Shown: in pieces, positions 6,981-36,909 of the stretch
Numbering within the stretch: position 1 is the stretch's first letter
How the letters are laid out: each line of letters begins with the position of its first letter
Source of the DNA: Acidobacteriota bacterium
Lineage (GTDB): Bacteria > Acidobacteriota > Terriglobia > Acidiferrales > UBA7541
DNA: 42,619 nt
Direction: 5' to 3'
NCBI GenBank assembly: GCA_003224085.1
Contig: QHYK01000088.1
Span: 1-42,619 of the forward strand
Notes under the pieces: generated by a model
The model's database searches: none
What the model was told of the DNA's origin: nothing
Seen by the model: only the letters and a program-made list of their open reading frames with translations
Position numbers and translations under genes: made by a program

Positions 6981-7097
6981 GGTTTCCAACGCCTCTTGCT
7001 TGACTCTATGGAAACTTCGAACTAGCCTCGTGCGTCGGTTGGTCAGACCGGTTTCTTATTATAGTGTCCTTCAAAGTTTCTTAGCTTGGAGATTCGC

Positions 7098-8801
7098 ATG
7101 CGCTTGAGACGGTTCCAGAGGTGTGCGTTCACGTTGGCGCTGGTGGTTTTTTCCTTTCTGGTTATCGGTCCACCGCTGCTTCATCCACAGGGCGGTGAGC
7201 CGCAATGCTTCGCCATTCGCGGAGCAAAAGTTGCGCCCGTGTCGGGGCCACCCATCGAAAGCGCCACCGTCGTCGTTTCTCGCGGCATTATCACCGCGGT
7301 CGGGAAAGACGCGGCAATTCCTCCAGAGGCCTTGGTCATCGATGGCAACGGTCTGACCGTTTACCCGGGTCTCGTGGATGCCTTCACGGATGTTGGCATT
7401 CCTGCAGCCGCAGCTCCTTCCCCTGGAGAAGGCGGCGGCCCGCGGCGCTCACCGGAGCAGGCGCGTGGGCCACAGGATCGTCCGGCATCCACGCCGTGGC
7501 GCAGCGGGGCCGACGAAGCAAATCTCACCGACAAACGCATCGAGACCTGGCGCGACGGCGGCTTCACAACCGTGATTTGCGCGCCTAAGGGCGGCTTGTT
7601 CCCGGGCCAGGCTGCCGTTCTGGATCTCGCAGGCGAACGCGCCGGCGACATGGTTGTGAAATCGCCAGTGGGCATTCCTCTTTCTTTCCAGACGTCAGGA
7701 GGATTTGGCAGCGGCTTTCCGGATTCCCTCCTTGGCGTGTTGTCTTACATTCATCAAGTCTGGCTGGACACGGATTGGAGCATCAAGGCCCAGGCCTTCT
7801 ACGAGAAGAATCCTCGCGGCATCGCGCGGCCGCGCTATGACCGCACGGAAGCCGCCCTTGCGGAAGCGCTGGAGGACCAGGCCCTAGTTCTTGTGCCCGC
7901 GAACAATAGCGTCGAGCTCCGCCGCGCAATCGAGCTTATCGGCCGCTGGCAGGTCAAAGGCGCAATTTACGGCGGTCAGATGGGCTACGAAGTTGCCTCT
8001 GAAATTGCGGCAAAGAAACTTCCCATGCTTGTGGACCTGAAATGGCCGGAATCGGAAAAAGATACCGACCCCGAAGCCAAGCCAACGCTGCGAACGCTGC
8101 GGTTCCGCGACCGCGCGCCGTCCACTCCTGCGACACTCGCCAAAGCGGGCGTGAAGTTCGCGTTTTATTCCGGAGGCATCGCCGCTCCCAAAGACATTCT
8201 GAAGGCCGCAAAGAGAGCCGTTGACGCGGGACTTTCGCCCGACGCCGCTCTGCGCGCATTCACGCTTTCCGCGGCTGAAATTTTTGGCGTGGCCGACCGC
8301 CTCGGCTCCATCGAGAACGGCAAAATCGCGAATCTCGTGGTGACCGACGGCGATCTCTTCGAAGAAAAAACCAAAATCAAAACGGTTTTCGTGGATGGCC
8401 GCCGGTTCGAAGCGCATGAACCGGAAAAACCCAAGGATCCTCCCAAGGGCGACCTGACTGGAAAATGGAAACTCTCCTACACCAGTCCGGAAGGCGCGGA
8501 AGAATCCACCGCAGACCTCACCATGGACAAAGACGGCACGATTTCCGGCTCGCTCGCGAGTCCGCGCGGCACCGCGAACATCATCAGCGGGTATCTCAGC
8601 GGCGACAAGTTCACCTTCACCATCAACATTGTTCTTGACCAGGGACCCACGGATGTCACCTTCTCCGGCACCTTTGACGGCACATCGTTGAAAGGGTCGA
8701 TCAGCGTGCTAGGCATGTCGCTCGACTTCACCGGGGTTAAACCGGGCAGCGCTGAATCTGCCGCGGCCACGGTCGGAGGCGCGCAAGGAGGACTCCCGTG
8801 A
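7098..8801 (+). CDS. Secreted amidohydrolase-fold protein lacking the HxH metal motif, with C-terminal beta domain
   Basis: A 567-residue protein with a signal peptide (MRLRRFQRCAFTLALVVFSF). The amidohydrolase N-terminal beta-sandwich follows (ESATVVVSRGIITAVG), then the point where the metal-binding DxHxH should be. Here that reads YPGLVDAFTDVG, with both histidines gone. The TIM-barrel continues to the typical end (AALRAFTLSAAEIFGVADRL, IENGKIANLVVTDGDLFE). The last 120 residues form an added beta-rich domain starting DLTGKWKLSYTSPEG. The ATG at 7098 has a GGAG site; a TTG at 7086 is less likely. Its stop overlaps the next start (TGATG), so the three amidohydrolase genes form one operon. 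It is probably a non-catalytic or altered partner of the middle protein. Confidence 0.85.
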   Translation: MRLRRFQRCAFTLALVVFSFLVIGPPLLHPQGGEPQCFAIRGAKVAPVSGPPIESATVVVSRGIITAVGKDAAIPPEALVIDGNGLTVYPGLVDAFTDVGIPAAAAPSPGEGGGPRRSPEQARGPQDRPASTPWRSGADEANLTDKRIETWRDGGFTTVICAPKGGLFPGQAAVLDLAGERAGDMVVKSPVGIPLSFQTSGGFGSGFPDSLLGVLSYIHQVWLDTDWSIKAQAFYEKNPRGIARPRYDRTEAALAEALEDQALVLVPANNSVELRRAIELIGRWQVKGAIYGGQMGYEVASEIAAKKLPMLVDLKWPESEKDTDPEAKPTLRTLRFRDRAPSTPATLAKAGVKFAFYSGGIAAPKDILKAAKRAVDAGLSPDAALRAFTLSAAEIFGVADRLGSIENGKIANLVVTDGDLFEEKTKIKTVFVDGRRFEAHEPEKPKDPPKGDLTGKWKLSYTSPEGAEESTADLTMDKDGTISGSLASPRGTANIISGYLSGDKFTFTINIVLDQGPTDVTFSGTFDGTSLKGSISVLGMSLDFTGVKPGSAESAAATVGGAQGGLP

Positions 8802-10264
8802 TGCTCAACCCAAGCCGAGCTCTTTCGCAATTCCCGTGCGTCCTTTGCCTCTTTTGCTCGCTTTGCTTCTCCCTTGCTGCCGCAACTCCGCCTGACACTC
8901 CTTCCTCTGTTCTGATTCAAAATGCCACCGTGCTCACGGTTTCTCACGGAACCATCGAGCACGGTTCCATCCTTATTAAGGACGGCAAGATTGCTGAGGT
9001 CGGCCAATCCGTTAAAGCTCCGGCAGGAGCGCAGGTGATTGACGCTACAGGGCAATTTGTCATTCCGGGAATCATCGATTGCCATTCGCACATTGCGTCA
9101 GAGGCCATCAATGAAGGCAGCGTCTCCGTTTCCTCCATGGTGACGATGGAAGAAGTTCTGGATCCCGATGACGTCTCTATTTACCGCGACCTCGCCGGAG
9201 GCGTGACCGCCGCTAACATTCTTCACGGCTCCGCGAACTCCATCGGTGGACAAACTCTGGTCATCAAGCTGCGCTGGGGCCAGCCGGCGTCCAAGCTTCC
9301 CTTTGAAGGCGCGCCGCCCGGCATCAAGTTCGCTCTTGGCGAAAACCCCAAGCGTTCGAACTTCAGCATCCCGGGCCAGCCCAGGCATTATCCGGCCACG
9401 CGCATGGGCGTCGAGGAAACCATTCGCGCTGCATTTGCGGAGGCGCGCGACTACAAGAAAATCTGGGATGACTACAACAAAAGCGTCGCCGCGGGCGAAA
9501 AGGCCCTCCTCCCGCCGCGCCGCGATCTGAAACTCGAGCCTCTCGTCGAAGTGCTCGAAGGCAAGCGCTACGTGCACGCGCACTGCTACCGCGAAGACGA
9601 AATCCTCATGCTCCTTCGCCTGGCCAAGGAATTCGGCTTTAAAGTCCGCACCTTCCAACACGTCCTGGAAGGCTACAAGATCGCCGATGAACTTGCTGCC
9701 GCTGGTGTTGGAGCTTCCACGTTTTCCGATTGGTGGGCTTATAAAGTCGAAGCCTACGACGCCATTCCATACAACGCGGCGCTGATGACGCGCCGCGGCG
9801 TGCTTGTTTCCGTGAATTCTGACGATGCGGAAGAGGCCACGCACCTCAATCAGGAAGCTGCCAAGAGCATGAAGTATGGCGGCCTCTCTCACGACGAGGC
9901 CTTGAAAATGGTCACGTTGAATCCCGCCATCCAGCTCGGCATTGACAAGCGCGTCGGCACTATCGACGTGGGCAAAGACGCCGATCTGGCAATCTACAAT
10001 CACGATCCGCTCAGCGCGTATGCTGTGGTTCAGAAAACGTTGATCGATGGAAGCATCTATTTCGACCGTGAAAAAGATATTGCGAATCGGGCTGAAATCG
10101 AAAAAGAAAAGAAAGCGCTCGCCGAAAAGCTGAAGTCGGCGGAGAAGAAACCCGAAGAGAAAAAGCCGCCGGAAAAGAAGCCCGAGGAAAAGCCCAAGCT
10201 GCCCACACCGGCTCCTACCCCCACCACCGCTCAAGCTGGGGCAGCTCCAGGAGGTGCGCCGTGA
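8801..10264 (+). CDS. Secreted amidohydrolase with intact metal motif (imidazolonepropionase-like)
   Basis: A 487-residue protein with an N-terminal signal region (CVLCLFCSLCFSLAAA). The amidohydrolase core follows, with GIIDCHSHIASE (His95, His97), later histidine-bearing strands (YVHAHCYREDEI and RTFQHVLEGYKI) and the family's terminal Asp region (LVSVNSDDAEEATHL). The C-terminal phrase GTIDVGKDADLAIYNHDPL is typical of the imidazolonepropionase-like/dipeptidase branch. The last 80 residues are a Lys/Glu/Pro tail (KKPEEKKPPEKKPEEKPK), probably disordered. The ATG overlaps the previous stop and has AAGGAGG at 8785-8791; its own stop overlaps the next GTG. The substrate cannot be told from sequence; peptides or cyclic amides are typical for the branch. 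Confidence 0.88.
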   Translation: MLNPSRALSQFPCVLCLFCSLCFSLAAATPPDTPSSVLIQNATVLTVSHGTIEHGSILIKDGKIAEVGQSVKAPAGAQVIDATGQFVIPGIIDCHSHIASEAINEGSVSVSSMVTMEEVLDPDDVSIYRDLAGGVTAANILHGSANSIGGQTLVIKLRWGQPASKLPFEGAPPGIKFALGENPKRSNFSIPGQPRHYPATRMGVEETIRAAFAEARDYKKIWDDYNKSVAAGEKALLPPRRDLKLEPLVEVLEGKRYVHAHCYREDEILMLLRLAKEFGFKVRTFQHVLEGYKIADELAAAGVGASTFSDWWAYKVEAYDAIPYNAALMTRRGVLVSVNSDDAEEATHLNQEAAKSMKYGGLSHDEALKMVTLNPAIQLGIDKRVGTIDVGKDADLAIYNHDPLSAYAVVQKTLIDGSIYFDREKDIANRAEIEKEKKALAEKLKSAEKKPEEKKPPEKKPEEKPKLPTPAPTPTTAQAGAAPGGAP

Positions 10265-11628
10265 AAAGAGCCGCCCGACCGCGTCTCGGTAGCCCTCGTT
10301 ACTTGTTCAACTTCGTTGGTCTTGTTTGCCTCCTTTGCGCGCCTGCTCTAGGCGCGCAAAGGCAGCCCCAGCCGTCTTTTTACGCCATTACTCACGCAAG
10401 AATCTTCACTCTTGCAGGTTCTCCCATCGAAGACGGCACGGTGGTCGTTCGCGATGGCAAGATTGCCGCGGTTGGCGCGGCAGTGGAAGTTCCCGCCGGC
10501 GCTCAAGTAATCGACGCGAAGGGGCTGCAAGTTTATCCAGGCCTTTTCGATGCGATTACACAGATGGGCTTGAGCGAAATCAGTGCCGTCAACGCCACCG
10601 TCGATTCCACGGAAACGGGAGGCTACAACCCCGACGTTGTCGCCGCATCTGCCATTTTGCCGTCAAGCGAGCATATTCCCGTTACGCGCGCTTCCGGCAT
10701 CACGGAGGTTCTTGCTGTCCCAGCCAGCGGCGGCTTGGACTTGTTCGGCGGCCGCGGAATCATCGGCGGCCAAGCCTCGGCGATTCACCTGGCTGGGTGG
10801 ACCATCGACGAAATGCTGATCAAGAAGAGCGCCGCTATGGCGCTCAATTTTCCGGAAATCCAAACCGAGACCTTTGACTTCGCTACCTTCTCGCGCAAAG
10901 AAAAACCCTACGCCGAAGCCAAGCAGGAATACGAAAAACAGGTCAATGAACTCACCGATTGGCTGGACCGCGCCCGCCACTACGCCCAAGCGATGGAAAA
11001 GGGCTCGGTCTCGAAATACGACCGCGACTTGAAGCTGGAAGCCCTCGCTCCGGTCGTTCGCGGCGGGCTGCCGGTTCTTGTCTTTGCCAATCGCGCGCGC
11101 GACATTCGCAACGCCGTCGAATTCTGCGACAAGCAAAAGCTCAAAATGATCCTCGCCGGAGGGGCTGAAGCCTACAAGGTCAAGGACCTTCTTCGCTCCA
11201 AGGGCGTCCCGGTCGTTCTTCGTCCCCCGTTGTCTTTTCCCGAGGACGAAGACGACCCTTACGACCGCGAGCTTTCGCAGCCTGCCGAGCTGGCTGCCGC
11301 CGGCGTGAAATTTGCCATCGCCAGCTTTGACAACTCTTTCGCCCGGCGCCTCGGACAAAACGCTGCCAACGCCGTCGCACACGGCTTGTCCTATGAGGAA
11401 GCGCTGCGAGCTGTCACCATCAATCCGGCTCAGATTTTTGGGCTATCGGGCCAGATCGGCACACTCGAAGAAGGCAAACTCGCCAACGTAATCGTCACCA
11501 ACGGCGACCCGCTGGAGTTGACCACCGACGTGAAATACCTGTTCATCAAGGGTCGGCTCACTTCAACCGAAAACAAGCACCATCGCTTGTATGAGAAGTA
11601 CCTGAACCGGCCCAAAGCTTCGAATTGA
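10261..11628 (+). CDS. Secreted amidohydrolase-fold protein lacking the HxH metal motif
   Basis: A 455-residue protein starting at GTG 10261, which overlaps the previous stop and has an AGGAGGTG ribosome site. A signal peptide (YLFNFVGLVCLLCAPALGAQ) is followed by the same beta-sandwich start as its neighbours (IEDGTVVVRDGKIAAVGAA). The DxHxH position reads YPGLFDAITQMGL, again without histidines. The barrel and the C-terminal sandwich (TINPAQIFGLSGQIGTLEEG, KLANVIVTNGDPLE) are complete, so this is loss of the metal site in an otherwise whole protein rather than a broken gene. It closes the operon; the next gene is convergent. It may bind substrate or pair with the middle enzyme; that is inference. 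Confidence 0.85.
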   Translation: MKRAARPRLGSPRYLFNFVGLVCLLCAPALGAQRQPQPSFYAITHARIFTLAGSPIEDGTVVVRDGKIAAVGAAVEVPAGAQVIDAKGLQVYPGLFDAITQMGLSEISAVNATVDSTETGGYNPDVVAASAILPSSEHIPVTRASGITEVLAVPASGGLDLFGGRGIIGGQASAIHLAGWTIDEMLIKKSAAMALNFPEIQTETFDFATFSRKEKPYAEAKQEYEKQVNELTDWLDRARHYAQAMEKGSVSKYDRDLKLEALAPVVRGGLPVLVFANRARDIRNAVEFCDKQKLKMILAGGAEAYKVKDLLRSKGVPVVLRPPLSFPEDEDDPYDRELSQPAELAAAGVKFAIASFDNSFARRLGQNAANAVAHGLSYEEALRAVTINPAQIFGLSGQIGTLEEGKLANVIVTNGDPLELTTDVKYLFIKGRLTSTENKHHRLYEKYLNRPKASN

Positions 11629-11674: not shown

Positions 11675-12112
11675 CTAAGCGCCTTGTTCCTGCCGCTCGC
11701 ACGTTAAGGTTAGTTCTTCGATCGCTACGTCGTTGCCCTTGGCATTGAGAGTCGGCCCCGTCCATTTGCTCGGCCAGGCGTTAAAAAAATTCCAGCGCAC
11801 CTTCTCATTGCCTTGGGAATCGAGAAGGACGACGGAACCATCTTTCCTTACCAGGTTCCCTTGAATTGCCTGCAAATGCCATTGGTAGAGCTCCTGTGAA
11901 TCGGTGATACCCCATTTCAGGACAATATCGGGATAGGAGACCCTTCCCGCGAGCTTGTGAACTGATGTGTTGTCCCCGCCTTCGCGGTATTCGACGACTT
12001 CAATCCGCGATCCAAGGCCGGTGCATTCCATGAAACCGGCCTGCTGGATTCCGGCGATTTCGACGCGAAACCGGAAATTCAAATAGGGGTCGCTTCCCTG
12101 ACCTCCTGCCAT
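11675..12112 (-). CDS. Contractile tail-tube protein, gp19 family, orphan
   Basis: A 145-residue protein starting MAGGQGSDPYLNFRFRVEIA. The start has an AAGGAGG ribosome site five bases upstream, and longer starts lack one. The sequence has the tube-protein pattern: an FRVEI strand, GFMECTGLGSRIEVVEYREG, and a central LKWGITDSQELYQWH helix. A final strand pair (EKVRWNFFNAWPSKWTGPTL and AIEELTLTCERQE) closes the barrel. These are hallmarks of the phage T4 gp19/Afp1-type inner tube proteins of contractile injection systems. No sheath, baseplate, spike or ATPase gene is in the window. It lies convergent to the amidohydrolase operon and divergent from the LolA-like gene. It may be a relic, or a tube protein that works with a cluster elsewhere. 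Confidence 0.85.
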   Translation of the reverse strand: MAGGQGSDPYLNFRFRVEIAGIQQAGFMECTGLGSRIEVVEYREGGDNTSVHKLAGRVSYPDIVLKWGITDSQELYQWHLQAIQGNLVRKDGSVVLLDSQGNEKVRWNFFNAWPSKWTGPTLNAKGNDVAIEELTLTCERQEQGA

Positions 12113-12185
12113 TTTTGCCTCCTTCCGTTTGTACCGCAATGTACTCCTGCTCCAACAAGTATGTGGCTCTTACCATACCTGCCCA

Positions 12186-12234
12186 TTTGGGCCGAAATGT
12201 CATACAAATTTCCAGCAACTTTTTCCGGCCCAAA
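12186..12234. repeat. 9-bp inverted repeat between divergent genes
   Basis: TTTGGGCCG at 12186-12194 is matched exactly by CGGCCCAAA at 12226-12234, 31 bases apart. It lies in the 156-base region between the divergent tail-tube and LolA-like genes, just upstream of the latter's start. It could be an operator or a long hairpin in the leader. The spacing is too long for a terminator, and no T run follows. Confidence 0.4.
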
Positions 12235-12268
12235 CCCGTTGTATAGGATGAGCCTCACAAGGACATCT

Positions 12269-13825
12269 ATGCCACGCCGCCTCCAATTAGTGGTTCTGCT
12301 TGCCGCAGCGTTTCTTTGTTCAATACGGGGTCCCGCGTTGGCTCGCGCCCAGGAGCCCGCGAAAATTGTGGACCAATACGTCAAAGCCGCTGGCGGCGGC
12401 CACGCCCCGTCTAAAATCCGTACTTTGTCACTCGAAGGCGCCTTCACCAGCGACGATGGAAAATCCGGCACCTACACGCTGGACACCAAACTGCCGAATC
12501 GCTACTACATGGAACTGCTGGTGGGCGACCAGAACCTGATGGAGGCTTACAACGGCAAGTCCGCCTGGCACCGGGATAGGGTAGGAGAGTTCAGCACGCT
12601 TGTCGGCACTGACGGAATGCAATTGGAGGCCGCGGCCCAGTATTACAACTCCCGGCTGCTCAACCTGAAGAAAGAAAAGATTGCGCTAGCGTTTGTAGGA
12701 AACGCCCGAGTGCGTGGCAGAGACGCTCTTGAACTCGAACTGACCAGCGCTACCGGGATAAAGCGCCACGTGTTTTTCGATCCGCAGTCGCACCTGATTG
12801 TGAAGGAAGCGGCAATTGTCGGCGGCGTCGAGCAGGAACTCCTGTACGACGATTATCGCTCCGTTGAAGGCGTGAAACTCCCCTACAAGATTGAGCTGCG
12901 CCGCGGTGACGCAAAATACGACATTACGATAATGCGCGCCACCATCAACGGCACGATCGGCGAACGCCTCTTCGATTTCCCCGTCAAGTCCCAGGTAAAA
13001 TTGCCCGACCTCAAGGCGCTGTTCAAAGAAATTGACGACAATCAAAAGGCCATCGACAAAATCAAGGAAAACTACGCCGGTACCGAAACGGAAGAAGAAA
13101 CCGCATACGAGGGCGACGGAAAAATGAAGAAGCACGAGACGCGCGAATCCACTTTCTTCTACCTGGATGGCGATGAAATCACCACGCTGGTGAAAAAAGA
13201 CGGCAAACCGCTCAGTGCAAAAGAACAAGAAAAAGAAAACGAGCACGTCCGGAAGCGCATCGAAGAACACCAAAAGCGCCAGGCAAAAAAGGAAGAAAAA
13301 GAAGAGAATGCCAAGGAGGAGGGGAAGAAGGAGGACAAAGATGCACCGGGCATTGAGGTTTTTTTGCGCGCATGCCAGTTTGTGAATCCGCGACGCGAAC
13401 GCTTCCGCGGCCAGGACGTTCTAGTTTTCGATTTCGAGCCCAATCCCGACTTCAAGCCGCACAGGCTGGAAGAAAAAGTCGTCCAGAGGCTCGCCGGTGT
13501 CGTTTGGGTGGACGAAAAAGCTCATGACGTCGCCCGTCTGGAAGCCTACTTTGTGGGCGACGTGAAAATTGCCGGAGGATTGCTCGCGAACCTGCAAAAA
13601 GGGACAAGCTTCGTCTTCGAGCAGACCTTTATCAACAACGAAGTATGGCTGCCGACTTACCTGGAGGCCCACGTTGGCGCGCGCGTCTTGTTGGTGAAAG
13701 GATTCAAAATGAGTTTCGTGACGCGCTATTCGGATTACAGGAAGTTCAATGTGGAGACGCTGTCGACCATCGCGAAGCCCAAAGGCACAGCGGGCGCTTC
13801 CGACGCACCTGTCAAGCCCCAATAG
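12269..13825 (+). CDS. Secreted LolA-like/outer-membrane lipoprotein-sorting-type protein with charged linker
   Basis: A 518-residue protein starting MPRRLQLVVLLAAAFLCSIR with a signal peptide. AAGGA lies six bases before the ATG at 12269; an ATG at 12248 lacks such a site. Residues about 25-260 have the pattern of LolA/LolB-like folds (IVDQYVKAAGG, TYTLDTKLPNRYYMELL, DALELELTSATGIKRHVFFD, EGVKLPYKIELRRGDAKYD). A highly charged Lys/Glu segment (about residues 330-365) separates this from a second beta-rich part with DVLVFDFEPNPDFKPHRLEE and FEQTFINNEVWLPTYLEAHV, resembling another lipoprotein-sorting-like unit. It probably works in the periplasm on lipidic or envelope material; the partner is unknown. 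It ends 15 bases before the convergent histidine kinase gene. Confidence 0.65.
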   Translation: MPRRLQLVVLLAAAFLCSIRGPALARAQEPAKIVDQYVKAAGGGHAPSKIRTLSLEGAFTSDDGKSGTYTLDTKLPNRYYMELLVGDQNLMEAYNGKSAWHRDRVGEFSTLVGTDGMQLEAAAQYYNSRLLNLKKEKIALAFVGNARVRGRDALELELTSATGIKRHVFFDPQSHLIVKEAAIVGGVEQELLYDDYRSVEGVKLPYKIELRRGDAKYDITIMRATINGTIGERLFDFPVKSQVKLPDLKALFKEIDDNQKAIDKIKENYAGTETEEETAYEGDGKMKKHETRESTFFYLDGDEITTLVKKDGKPLSAKEQEKENEHVRKRIEEHQKRQAKKEEKEENAKEEGKKEDKDAPGIEVFLRACQFVNPRRERFRGQDVLVFDFEPNPDFKPHRLEEKVVQRLAGVVWVDEKAHDVARLEAYFVGDVKIAGGLLANLQKGTSFVFEQTFINNEVWLPTYLEAHVGARVLLVKGFKMSFVTRYSDYRKFNVETLSTIAKPKGTAGASDAPVKPQ

Positions 13826-32229: not shown

Positions 32230-33825
32230 TTAATGGGTGAAGGGGTCGGTGTCCGGAGCGGGGAGGATTTCCGGACCTTCCGGATTTGCTGAATTCGCGG
32301 ACCCGTTGCCCCCGTCGTGAGCCTCTTGCAACGATTTTCCACCGTCTTTGGTGAGGTTCTCAAGCGTGGATTTTGAGTGTTCATCGACGGCGCTAACGGC
32401 TGCAACGAGGCAGGAATACAAGAACGCCTTCATTCCCTTGCGGAGTTGATCGGTGGATTTTTCGGCAGCCCGAGCGACTTCCGCTTCCAAAGCTTGGCGG
32501 CGCACCTCGCAAGCAGCGCGATTCTCCGCGTCGAGAGAGGAGAGGGCTGATGCAGCCCGTTCTTTCGTCTCCGAAAGGACAGCGTTCATTTGCGATTCGG
32601 CCTGCCGCTGCAAAGCGGCAAGCGTGGAATTCACCGCGCCCTGCGCTGATGCCTGGACTTCCGCCGAACGCGCGTCCAGCTTTAACAGCGCCTCTTGCAT
32701 TACCGATTGCGTGGTTTCCAGGAGCCGCTCGAAACGCCGGTCCATGATGCGGGCGGCGGCGCCATCGAATTCGGAGGTCGCATGAGCGATGGCATCGTTG
32801 AGGTGGGCCTGAACCTGCGGCTCCAATTCACTGCTCATTCTGCCCAGAAATTCCTGGCAGCGATCGAGCTCGCGCTTCAGTTCCGCAGCCTGACGTGCCA
32901 GCCGTTGAGTCAATTCCTCAGCATGGGCGCGGTACTTCTCCATTTCTTGTTTCCAATGCGACGCGATCACCGAGGCGGTCACGTCGGCGATTTCCTCCTT
33001 TGTGGCAAGCTCGGCCGTCGGGGTTTCCGCTGGCGAAGGGAGAAGCTGCTGAATTTCGCGAATGCTCGACTGTCGGATGTCGCCTATGGCGGCGACGGCA
33101 TTGCGCACGGCTTCGTCCACTTGTTTCCCGACGGCGGTTTGTACGGCTTTTTCGGCGGCTTGCTGCAGCTTTTCCTGAAGCGCGTTGAGGAGGGCATCGG
33201 GCGTAACCACCACACGCTGTGGTTTGGGAGTTTCGGAGAGCGTGGGGTCAGAAGGCTTCGAAGCCGCCGGCGGGGGGGAAGGAAAAGTGGCCACTTCTGC
33301 CAGCTTGGGCTCGAGGAGCGAAGGCTGCTCTTCCCTTTCCGCTTTCGTCTCTATCATTCCGGCTTGGATTGGGGAGGGCAAGGGTGAAAGCTCCGGGTTC
33401 ACCGCCGCGGAAAATTGAGGAAGCGAGGCCGTTGTTTCTCCTGAGATGAGCCAGTCCTGCGGCGGCGTGATGATGCCCCAAACGTTCGCGGGATTCTCCA
33501 GCTCCACGCCCACTTGCTGCAGTTCGCGCGTGCTTTGAGAAGGATGAATCGATCGCACTCTGGCGCGAACCGCCGGCGGCTGGGGCTCCAAGTTGAGGCC
33601 CACGACCTGGAGCGTCACCCAGCTTCCCACGCCATAATCGTGGCGCGAAGGATAGCGGCAACCATGCAGATTGACGCTGGTGGAAACGGTTCTCTCGACA
33701 AACGGCTCGTCCAGGCTGTTCTGGCCGAAGACGATCAGCGGAACGGACCGTTCGACGCGCGTGCTGCGGCGCGATTCTACCTTCACAAAATCATCCGGAG
33801 TTCTCGCAAGAGAGGATTGGCTCAC
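32230..33825 (-). CDS. PilZ-domain protein with long coiled-coil region
   Basis: From GTG 33825, which has AAGGGAG five bases upstream, the protein is 531 residues; an ATG at 33861 would add 12 but lacks a site. An N-terminal PilZ-like domain begins with ESRRSTRVERSVPLIVFGQN (the RxxxR motif that contacts cyclic di-GMP) and runs to about residue 130 (QQVGVELENPANVWGI). A Pro/Ser-rich linker follows, then about 300 residues of charged helices (KQEMEKYRAHAEELTQRLAR) and a second amphipathic part (QRQAESQMNAVLSETKERAA) resembling methyl-accepting or apolipoprotein-type coiled coils. The canonical DxSxxG motif is only partly readable (SVNLHG), so ligand binding is uncertain. No partner gene is adjacent. 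Confidence 0.75.
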   Translation of the reverse strand: MSQSSLARTPDDFVKVESRRSTRVERSVPLIVFGQNSLDEPFVERTVSTSVNLHGCRYPSRHDYGVGSWVTLQVVGLNLEPQPPAVRARVRSIHPSQSTRELQQVGVELENPANVWGIITPPQDWLISGETTASLPQFSAAVNPELSPLPSPIQAGMIETKAEREEQPSLLEPKLAEVATFPSPPPAASKPSDPTLSETPKPQRVVVTPDALLNALQEKLQQAAEKAVQTAVGKQVDEAVRNAVAAIGDIRQSSIREIQQLLPSPAETPTAELATKEEIADVTASVIASHWKQEMEKYRAHAEELTQRLARQAAELKRELDRCQEFLGRMSSELEPQVQAHLNDAIAHATSEFDGAAARIMDRRFERLLETTQSVMQEALLKLDARSAEVQASAQGAVNSTLAALQRQAESQMNAVLSETKERAASALSSLDAENRAACEVRRQALEAEVARAAEKSTDQLRKGMKAFLYSCLVAAVSAVDEHSKSTLENLTKDGGKSLQEAHDGGNGSANSANPEGPEILPAPDTDPFTH

Positions 33826-33960
33826 GTCTTCTCCCTTGGGAATGCGGCGCGAATTTCCCATGGTAATCGGAGCGCGCTCGTTTTACCGGGGGAGTTGCGC
33901 CGCTCCCTGGACCCTAGGGCGCTGATGTTAGCTGAAGCCCGCTTCGTTGTCGAATAATTC

Positions 33961-35523: not shown

Positions 35524-35625
35524 CGCGTCTGTCGTGGCGCCGTACCGCTTCGAGGCTGAAACATTTTTGCCAGGCGACGAATCGCGGAGTCTTTGATAGG
35601 CTTGCGGCTCCGAAGGAGGGAGTCG

Positions 35626-36909
35626 ATGCGCCGTTTTCTTGGTTTCGCTTTCTCTGCCTTGCTCCTGCCGGCGTTTGCCGCAGGGCAAACGCCGCACCGC
35701 ATGGCCATACGCGCGGGCAGATTGATTGATGGGAAGAGCAGTAAGCCGGTGGAGAACGCGCTCATCTTGATTGAGGACGACAAGGTCGCATCGGTGACGC
35801 ACGGCGGGAGCGCTCCTGCCGGCGCGGAACTGCTTGACCTCACGAAAGCGACCGTCCTGCCGGGATTCATCGACGTGCACACGCACGTGCTTTTGCAGGG
35901 TGATGTGACCGCGGAAGAATACGACGAGCAATTATTGAAGCAATCGATTCCCTATCGCGCGATTCTTGCCGCCCGCAACGCGCAGATTGCGTTGTCGCAC
36001 GGGTTCACGGCCATGCGCGACCTGGAAACCGAAGGTGCGATGTACGCCGACGTGGACGTTAAGAGGGCAATCGCCAACGGTGAAGTGCCGGGTCCGCGCA
36101 TGCAAGTGGCCACGCGCGCGATGACCCCGACGGGCATGTATCCGCTGTTGGGCTATTCGTGGGAATTGAAGATGCCCACGGGGGTGCAGTACGTGGACGG
36201 CGTGGAGGGGGCGCGCAAAGCTGTGCGCGAGCAGGCCATGTACGGCGCGGACTGGATCAAATATTACTCAGACCGCCGCTACCACTTTGAGGCGGATGGC
36301 GTGCTGCACAGCATGGTGAACTTCACCGACGAAGAAGCAAAGGCGATTGTTGACGAAACACACCGCATAGGAAAGAAAGTGGCCGCCCATGCTATCGGCA
36401 GCGACGGGATTGCTGCGGCGCTGCGCGCGGGCGTGGACACCATCGAGCATGGAGATGGCCTGACGGATGCGCTGATGGACGAGATGGTTCGGAGGGGCAT
36501 CTATTGGGTGCCCACGCTCACCGTGGGCTTGTACGTCGCGCCCGGGCGCGACGGAAATTGGCAGAAAATGGCGGAGCTGGAGCGCGACAATTTTGGAAAA
36601 GCCCTTAAGAAAGGCGTGAAAATCGCGCTCGGCACGGATGCGGGCGGCTTCGACTGGACAAAAGTGAATCAAGCGAAAGAGTTCGAATACTACGTGCAAT
36701 ATGGTATGACGCCGATCGAGGCGATTCACACGGGCACGTCGACGGGGGCGGAACTGCTTGGCTGGAGCGATAAAACAGGGACCGTCGAAGCAGGCAAATG
36801 GGCGGACCTCGTTGCGGTTTCCGGCGATCCGCTGAAGGACATCACCGAATTGCAAAAGGTAAAATTCGTGATGAAAGGCGGCGCAATTTACAAGAATGAG
36901 TTGAAGTGA
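35626..36909 (+). CDS. Secreted amidohydrolase with complete metal site
   Basis: A 427-residue enzyme from the ATG at 35626, which follows AAGGAGGG. A signal peptide (RRFLGFAFSALLLPAFAAGQ) precedes the amidohydrolase core. Every expected ligand is visible: His85 and His87 (GFIDVHTHVLL), Lys212 (YGADWIKYYSD, the position carboxylated in related prolidases), His255 (VAAHAIGSDG), His275 (TIEHGDGL) and Asp338 (ALGTDAGG). The C-terminal TGTVEAGKWADLVAVSGDPL is typical of the imidazolonepropionase-like/Xaa-Pro dipeptidase branch. It probably cleaves peptides or N-acyl amino acids outside the cytoplasm. It contrasts with the trio at 7098-11628, two members of which lack the HxH. It stands alone, just right of the ISKra4 element. 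Confidence 0.9.
   Translation: MRRFLGFAFSALLLPAFAAGQTPHRMAIRAGRLIDGKSSKPVENALILIEDDKVASVTHGGSAPAGAELLDLTKATVLPGFIDVHTHVLLQGDVTAEEYDEQLLKQSIPYRAILAARNAQIALSHGFTAMRDLETEGAMYADVDVKRAIANGEVPGPRMQVATRAMTPTGMYPLLGYSWELKMPTGVQYVDGVEGARKAVREQAMYGADWIKYYSDRRYHFEADGVLHSMVNFTDEEAKAIVDETHRIGKKVAAHAIGSDGIAAALRAGVDTIEHGDGLTDALMDEMVRRGIYWVPTLTVGLYVAPGRDGNWQKMAELERDNFGKALKKGVKIALGTDAGGFDWTKVNQAKEFEYYVQYGMTPIEAIHTGTSTGAELLGWSDKTGTVEAGKWADLVAVSGDPLKDITELQKVKFVMKGGAIYKNELK

Follow-up and report, generated by a model that had tools for sequence, protein, structure and literature searches.

A three-gene amidohydrolase operon of an Acidobacteriota bacterium with one active-type protein and two homologues lacking the metal site

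The window analyzed here is a stretch of 42,619 nucleotides from an Acidobacteriota soil bacterium (assembly GCA_003224085.1, contig QHYK01000088.1, positions 1 to 42,619 of the forward strand). An operon spanning positions 7098-11628 of its forward strand encodes three proteins with the amidohydrolase fold, of which only the middle one has the complete set of metal ligands of a catalytic amidohydrolase. The three genes probably encode one extracytoplasmic hetero-oligomeric hydrolase, in which the gene 2 product is the sole catalytic subunit and those of genes 1 and 3 serve as inactive partners. In such an assembly, the gene 2 protein would perform the chemistry with its full metal site. Genes 1 and 3 would be old duplicates of an ancestor shared by all three and similar to the solved amidohydrolase 3ooq. 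Their metal site would have disappeared long ago, and they would have been retained as partners that regulate the gene 2 protein, pack against it, or complete its chamber. The activity of the gene 2 protein, its need for partners, and the cell compartment are inferred from the evidence described below. The substrates would most likely be peptides or other amides, judging by the neighboring solved structures.

The three genes are organized as follows:
7098..8801, forward strand: gene 1, pseudo-amidohydrolase of 567 amino acids with an ATG start; the N-terminus is signal-like and the metal-site positions are lost (DAFTDVG)
8801..10264, forward strand: gene 2, active-type amidohydrolase of 487 amino acids with a C-terminal tail rich in lysine and proline
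10261..11628, forward strand: gene 3, pseudo-amidohydrolase of 455 amino acids with a GTG start; the N-terminus is signal-like and the metal-site positions are lost (DAITQMG)

Fold and metal site of the three proteins

All three proteins score above the cut-off of the Pfam family Amidohydro_1, and each has the amidohydrolase 3ooq from Thermotoga maritima MSB8 (TM0814) as its best solved relative. The E-values of the matches to 3ooq are 1.3e-56 for gene 2, 1.3e-38 for gene 3, and 4.8e-21 for gene 1, whereas the next-best solved structures reach 2.3e-11, 6.9e-10, and 1.9e-07, respectively. The alignments cover nearly the whole chain of 3ooq (residues 9-384 in the case of gene 1). The proteins thus share the fold of the amidohydrolase superfamily, a TIM barrel with a composite beta-sandwich, which a preliminary description of the window had judged to be complete in each of them apart from the metal site. 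The similarity over the whole chain, ahead of every other solved relative, places them in a group with 3ooq. The label "imidazolonepropionase-like" used in the same description is imprecise, because genes 1, 2, and 3 score 38.8, 63.2, and 48.1 bits against the imidazolonepropionase family HutI (TIGR01224), the cut-off of which is 298.15 bits. The scores against the Xaa-Pro dipeptidase family (NF051886) are 51.8, 59.1, and 56.1 bits, compared to a cut-off of 500 bits, and none of the curated NCBIfam families listed for genes 1-3 reaches its own cut-off.

The roles of the metal ligands were assigned from the pattern of the superfamily and from a family alignment of 247 sequences. The alignment, the phylogenetic tree, and the ligand counts cover domains of at least 360 residues from loci numbered L058 and above, apart from L062, L064, L066, L067, and L069. 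The residues of gene 2 that form the putative site are:
9083..9091, forward strand: HxH motif (H95 and H97); both histidines are present in 87 of 87 gene 2 sequences
9326..9328, forward strand: K176, candidate bridging lysine of strand 4; lysine in 87 of 87 gene 2 sequences and in 3ooq
9581..9583, forward strand: H261, taken as the ligand of strand 5 from the family alignment
9659..9661, forward strand: H287, taken as the ligand of strand 6 from the family alignment
9821..9823, forward strand: D341, taken as the ligand of strand 8 from the family alignment

The catalytic ligand set of amidohydrolases, composed of the HxH motif, two additional histidines, and an aspartate, is complete in gene 2 and incomplete in genes 1 and 3. 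All five ligands are present in each of the 87 gene 2 sequences, but in none of the 76 gene 1 and none of the 81 gene 3 sequences, in agreement with the earlier claim that the middle gene alone keeps the metal site. The loss extends beyond the HxH motif, since the remaining three ligand columns of the family alignment are altered in genes 1 and 3 as well. Among gene 1 sequences, 57 of 76 retain none of the ligands and 19 retain one; the corresponding numbers for gene 3 are 72 and 9 of 81. The structure 3ooq contains the five ligands and the equivalent of K176, as gene 2 does. Column 176 holds lysine in 118 of the 124 active-type sequences and column 181 holds glutamate in 112 of them; K176 may be the bridging ligand of gene 2, with E181 as the alternative.

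In gene 3, the alignment columns of H95, H97, H261, H287, and D341 lie at the 99th, 94th, 100th, 46th, and 64th percentiles of variability, and in gene 1 at the 79th, 65th, 65th, 11th, and 67th. The fold of both proteins is thus retained, but the ancestral site has not been kept, above all in gene 3. Both genes 1 and 3 have conserved positions away from the metal site.

The HxH motif was also examined in the genome from which the window originates. A search of this genome with gene 2, the scope of which is the matches to gene 2 and not all amidohydrolases of the genome, provided 19 matches. Three of them are the genes of the operon, and the other 16 fall into 15 reading frames. The HxH region is present in 14 of these frames and the motif is intact in all 14, within the context PGxxDxHxH in 13 frames and PGLVGMHDH in one, whereas the fifteenth frame comprises the C-terminal part alone. 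The occurrence of two adjacent barrels without HxH is therefore out of the ordinary. One of the control proteins is encoded on the same contig, at positions 35593-36909 of the forward strand, and carries the intact motif in the sequence PGFIDVHTHV.

It could be argued that genes 1 and 3 arose from gene 2 by duplication and are decaying, as the ligands are missing and, in five loci, one of the partner genes is broken into two frames. This explanation is extremely unlikely, and recent decay was rejected. The same loss is found across phyla, and none of the 76 gene 1 and 81 gene 3 sequences carries HxH, although relatives with the motif had been named in the preliminary description as the sign of recent decay. 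Partner frames are unbroken except in the five split loci and where contigs end. In a midpoint-rooted tree of the domains, the gene 1 sequences form one clade (76 of 76, support 1.0), all gene 2 sequences form another (support 0.992), and 80 of the 81 gene 3 sequences form a third (support 0.992), the exception being that of L065, a two-gene system. The branching among the three clades is poorly supported, with a value of 0.336 at one deep node. The medians of the within-genus ratio of nonsynonymous to synonymous polymorphism (pN/pS), calculated relative to the genes of the window, are 0.253, 0.199, and 0.222 for genes 1, 2, and 3 (n = 20, 20, and 17). Genes 1 and 3 are thus constrained almost as strongly as gene 2, and the three medians indicate purifying selection on all three genes. 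The separate clades suggest that the losses are older than the spread of the genes across phyla.

Gene order, fusions, and co-occurrence

The alignment of gene 2 was compared to the genomes of 84,980 species, which resulted in 529 confirmed relatives, and the best 80 were analyzed. Because these loci were selected by gene 2, they show the companions of gene 2, not the frequency of the trio. All three genes are present in 77 of the 80 loci. The genes are separate in the order 1, 2, 3 in 47 loci; genes 1 and 2 are fused and followed by gene 3 in 15; gene 1 is followed by a fusion of genes 2 and 3 in 10; and a fusion of genes 2 and 3 precedes gene 1 in five. In seven of the 77 three-gene loci gene 1 is truncated by the end of the contig and only partly visible. 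The three incomplete loci are L113 and L132, which end at contig edges, and L135, a fusion of genes 1 and 2 in a genome that has gene 3 on a separate contig. The set of three genes and the loss of ligands, the conservation of which the preliminary description had proposed to test, are thus conserved elsewhere. According to the record titles, which may be wrong for metagenome bins, the relatives belong to ten phylum-level groups: Acidobacteria, Gemmatimonadetes, Latescibacterota, Krumholzibacteriia, Planctomycetota, Eisenbacteria, Ignavibacteria, Proteobacteria, Fimbriimonadales, and Actinomycetota. Viral contigs provided 18 stretches, none of which is a relative.

Gene 2 is fused to one of its partners without a sequence gap at the junction in 31 of the 80 loci, 16 of which join genes 1 and 2 (including L135) and 15 genes 2 and 3. 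In the fusion of L115, undefined residues (X) are confined to positions 850-853, and there are none at the junction. An apparent fusion of genes 1 and 2 in L054 was rejected, because X residues at the junction correspond to a scaffold gap.

The distribution of the trio was determined in 149 Acidobacteriota genomes that are at least 90% complete, by separate profile searches for genes 2, 3, and 1. True members were distinguished from cross-hits by their genomic place and the lists were read by eye. With score limits chosen after inspection of the lists, trio-type genes 1, 2, and 3 occur in an identical set of 51 of the 149 genomes, and 19 further genomes contain adjacent genes of the family without a separate gene 1. 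Genome G063, one of the 51, has gene 1 on a different contig from genes 2 and 3, and both sites are located deep inside long contigs. The retention of gene 1 in G063, and of gene 3 in the genome of L135, despite the lack of linkage was counted in favor of the partnership. In a second phylum, that of the genome containing L147 (titled Gemmatimonadetes), a trio-type gene 2 scoring at least 500 bits, a limit likewise chosen after inspection of the lists, is present in 68 of 121 genomes, and gene 1 in all 68. The single genome of this phylum with gene 1 alone, G200, contains a fusion of genes 1 and 2 that is ended by a contig edge. The co-occurrence of the three genes outside the window, on which the preliminary description had made its interpretation depend, is therefore widespread. 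Among the genome of the window and 40 relatives, gene 2 was detected with E-values of at most 1e-229 in 21 of the 24 genomes of the same genus, and several genomes from elsewhere in the order and class also contain it. In one of the three same-genus genomes without gene 2 (G022), gene 3 is located at a contig end.

Other relatives form two-gene systems. Of the loci of this type, 26 were examined (L065, L068, L150-L169, L178-L180, and L182), and 24 of them encode one barrel with five ligands and one barrel without the ligand set. Locus L154 (G046:C4:9500-21500) contains six tandem domains, encoded by four genes and one two-domain fusion, that constitute three active/inactive pairs, and the two-gene locus L167 is ended by a contig edge. 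Considering the 123 loci of all types, which are not all independent because a few genomes are represented twice, as by L060 and L080, 82 encode one active and two inactive domains, 38 one of each, and one three of each. Fourteen of the 38 are trio loci in which a partner was omitted because of its shortness. Active and inactive domains occur together in 121 of the 123 loci, and the other two, L132 and L167, are ended by contig edges. An inactive homologue is thus encoded beside the active one, as expected of a hetero-oligomer with pseudoenzyme subunits. None of the 206 inactive sequences keeps both H95 and H97. In the simplest history, an ancestral pair of one active and one inactive protein would have gained its second inactive partner later.

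In a subgroup of the second phylum, gene 1 retains H95 and D341 and has the sequence DAHADLG or a similar one. Loci L170-L177 are a group with fusions of genes 1 and 2 of about 1000-1100 amino acids. The inactive first half retains H95 and D341 but not H97 in seven of these eight loci (DAHADLG, DAHADLE, and DAHSNVG), and retains D341 only in L175 (DASADLG). It is possible that the gene 1 halves of these fusions have a half-lost metal site.

Predicted contacts and export of the subunits

Natural fusions from other species were modeled as single chains with AlphaFold2, using alignments of trimmed single-domain sequences. The model of a fusion of genes 2 and 3 (L100, 900 residues, 50 aligned sequences) has a mean predicted local distance difference test (pLDDT) score of 88.6 and a predicted template modeling (pTM) score of 0.88; the corresponding values for a fusion of genes 1 and 2 (L121, 915 residues, 40 aligned sequences) are 87.4 and 0.87. 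Two domains of equal size without a fixed arrangement are expected to result in a pTM near one half. The considerably higher scores indicate that fixed packing is predicted both for protein 1 on protein 2 and for protein 2 on protein 3. The top match of both models in a fold search is 3ooq, with a Z-score of 47.2 for the gene 3 domain of the 2+3 model (370 residues, 2.8 Å) and 48.5 for the gene 2 domain of the 1+2 model (372 residues, 2.0 Å). Some VIA rows extend over both domains of the 2+3 model, and no conclusion is drawn from them. The confident models, together with the fusion of gene 2 to either partner, support a physical partnership of the three proteins.

The export of the proteins was scored using a crude rule, the presence of a hydrophobic uncharged stretch ahead of the first core strand. 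Such a stretch precedes 60 of 67 gene 1, 50 of 57 gene 2, and 47 of 59 gene 3 domains that are standalone or first in a fusion, but 0 of 16 gene 2 and one of 14 gene 3 domains located inside fusions. The absence of the stretch inside fusions suggests that each separate subunit is exported on its own and a fusion in a single event, with all of them reaching the same side of the membrane.

As an alternative to a complex, the three genes could serve one shared pathway, with genes 1 and 3 encoding separate binding proteins or proteins that use the same barrel for a different chemistry without metal. Taken alone, operon linkage and co-occurrence would appear identical in this case, and the conserved positions of genes 1 and 3 away from the metal site could belong to such functions. 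However, the fusions of gene 2 in 31 of 80 loci and the pTM scores of the fused pairs indicate contact, and conserved new chemistry at the former site of gene 3 is unlikely given its hypervariable columns. The site columns of gene 1 are only moderately variable, at the 65th-79th percentiles for four of the five. We consider a pathway without a complex quite unlikely.

Genes 1 and 3 could also encode regulatory or inhibitory pseudo-subunits that are not required for activity, which is a version of the complex rather than an alternative to it. The constant companionship with gene 2 fits this possibility equally well, and regulatory functions of pseudoenzymes are well known, according to PMC5106787. 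However, permanent fusion into one chain makes a purely transient inhibitor less natural, and activation and inhibition are not separated by the present data. Such dispensable regulators appear unlikely. The preliminary description regarded the outer proteins as structural or substrate-binding partners of the middle enzyme. The role as partners is supported by the fusions, models, and co-occurrence, whereas substrate binding is less supported for gene 3, because variability in this protein is close to its highest at the columns of H95, H97, and H261. A structural or regulatory function fits gene 3 better.

Several observations weigh against a hetero-oligomer. The trio is dispensable, as 79 of the 149 Acidobacteriota genomes have no family match at an E-value of 1e-40, and the same-genus genomes G007 and G010 (96% and 98% complete) lack gene 2. 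A shared pathway, rather than contact, can also account for linkage and fusion. The packing is read from the overall scores of the models, which are of fusions from other species. The sole close solved relative, 3ooq, differs from the trio in that the deposit contains one chain of the active type, and the fold may therefore function without partners; 3ooq resembles gene 2 in its metal site. The partner genes split over two frames, in L055, L066, L067, L074, and L079, reflect either assembly errors or real damage, and among the 206 inactive sequences 43 keep one ligand and 12 keep two. With these points taken into account, we still regard one hydrolase with a single catalytic subunit as the probable arrangement.

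The arrangement may apply to the 3ooq-like branch in general. We consider it slightly better supported than not that most carriers of the branch have an obligate heteromeric system of one live barrel with one dead barrel (duo) or two (trio). With the same slight preference, the dead barrels would build the chamber or control the live one, in about ten phyla and with fusions of both types. The fold of M16 peptidases is unrelated to that of amidohydrolases. If the proposal is correct, the branch would be a bacterial counterpart, of different fold and previously undescribed, of the active/inactive pairing in M16. Pseudoenzyme subunits are known mainly as single cases or pairs, whereas here a whole subfamily of a large and thoroughly studied superfamily seems to be accompanied by one or two dead paralogues. 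Should the live subunit depend on these partners, members of the group expressed alone would appear inactive in activity screens, and this could partly explain why no assigned function was found for the group. The natural fusions are ready constructs of one or two chains that make the idea directly testable.

Related systems, gene features, and neighboring genes

The closest system in the manner of working appears to be the mitochondrial processing peptidase, in which an active beta subunit is combined with a homologous alpha subunit that lacks the metal motif and is nevertheless essential, as stated in passages of PMC11266112. The same passages describe M16 relatives in which a single chain of about 1,000 residues holds both halves. 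These enzymes differ from the trio in having the HxxEH motif and two types of subunit instead of three. In Pseudomonas aeruginosa, the inactive dihydroorotase homologue pDHO is required for the activity of aspartate transcarbamoylase, according to PMC7053772, and is thus another inactive chain with the amidohydrolase fold needed by its partner. There the partner is a transcarbamoylase, whereas the presumed partner here is itself of the active type and belongs to the same subfamily. The dihydropyrimidinase-related proteins CRMP (4bkn and 4b91, Z-score 22.7) also match the fold of the gene 3 domain. CRMP proteins have an amidohydrolase fold without enzyme activity; they are eukaryotic and far more distant in sequence, and to our knowledge no active partner is encoded alongside them. 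In the open-access literature, neither a description of a three-paralogue amidohydrolase system with pseudoenzyme subunits nor a paper naming 3ooq was found, and the searched passages of PMC10211241 mention no amidohydrolase. Hetero-oligomers with pseudoenzyme subunits are already known, but, within the open-access literature searched, the version with three amidohydrolase paralogues is apparently new.

The three genes of the operon are coupled by overlapping stop and start codons, and each start is preceded by a ribosome-binding site that was identified by eye:
7088..7091, forward strand: ribosome-binding site of gene 1 (GGAG)
8785..8791, forward strand: ribosome-binding site of gene 2 (AAGGAGG)
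10249..10254, forward strand: ribosome-binding site of gene 3 (AGGAGG)

Gene 2 has an alternative GTG start at position 8798 and overlaps the stop codon of gene 1, and the start of gene 3 overlaps the stop codon of gene 2. The coordinates, overlaps, and strong ribosome-binding sites agree with the preliminary description, as do the residues DAFTDVG, DCHSHIA, and DAITQMG at the DxHxH positions of genes 1, 2, and 3. The signal peptides assigned to each protein correspond to signal-like N-terminal stretches recognized by eye in all three. Gene 1 extends past the barrel from about residue 445 (positions about 8430-8801 of the window), and the sole Pfam match of this C-terminal extension is a weak one to the lipocalin-like GH43_C (E-value 0.24). 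Gene 3 ends with a tail that reads LYEKYxxRP in the protein of the window (positions about 11560-11628). Of the 81 gene 3 sequences, 62 have a tail of the form LYxKYxxR, which is absent from all 76 gene 1 and all 87 gene 2 sequences; the tail is a candidate contact segment.

The flanks of many of the 80 loci are short, and no widely conserved additional neighbor that might hint at the substrate was found in them; the largest group of neighbors occurs in 13 loci. The neighbor groups include an ABC-transporter-like ATPase and purine-synthesis genes, named by reading of their sequences. In the window, gene 3 is directly followed on the opposite strand by a gene for a T4 gp19-like tail tube protein (positions 11675-12139, reverse strand; Pfam E-value 7.1e-48). 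Positions 12161-13825 of the forward strand encode a 554-residue protein without a Pfam match and with a long stretch rich in lysine and glutamate; a group of proteins with similar N-termini, as judged by eye, is encoded downstream of the trio in seven of the 80 loci. A 543-residue open reading frame at positions 32230-33861 of the reverse strand has no Pfam match at an E-value of 0.001.

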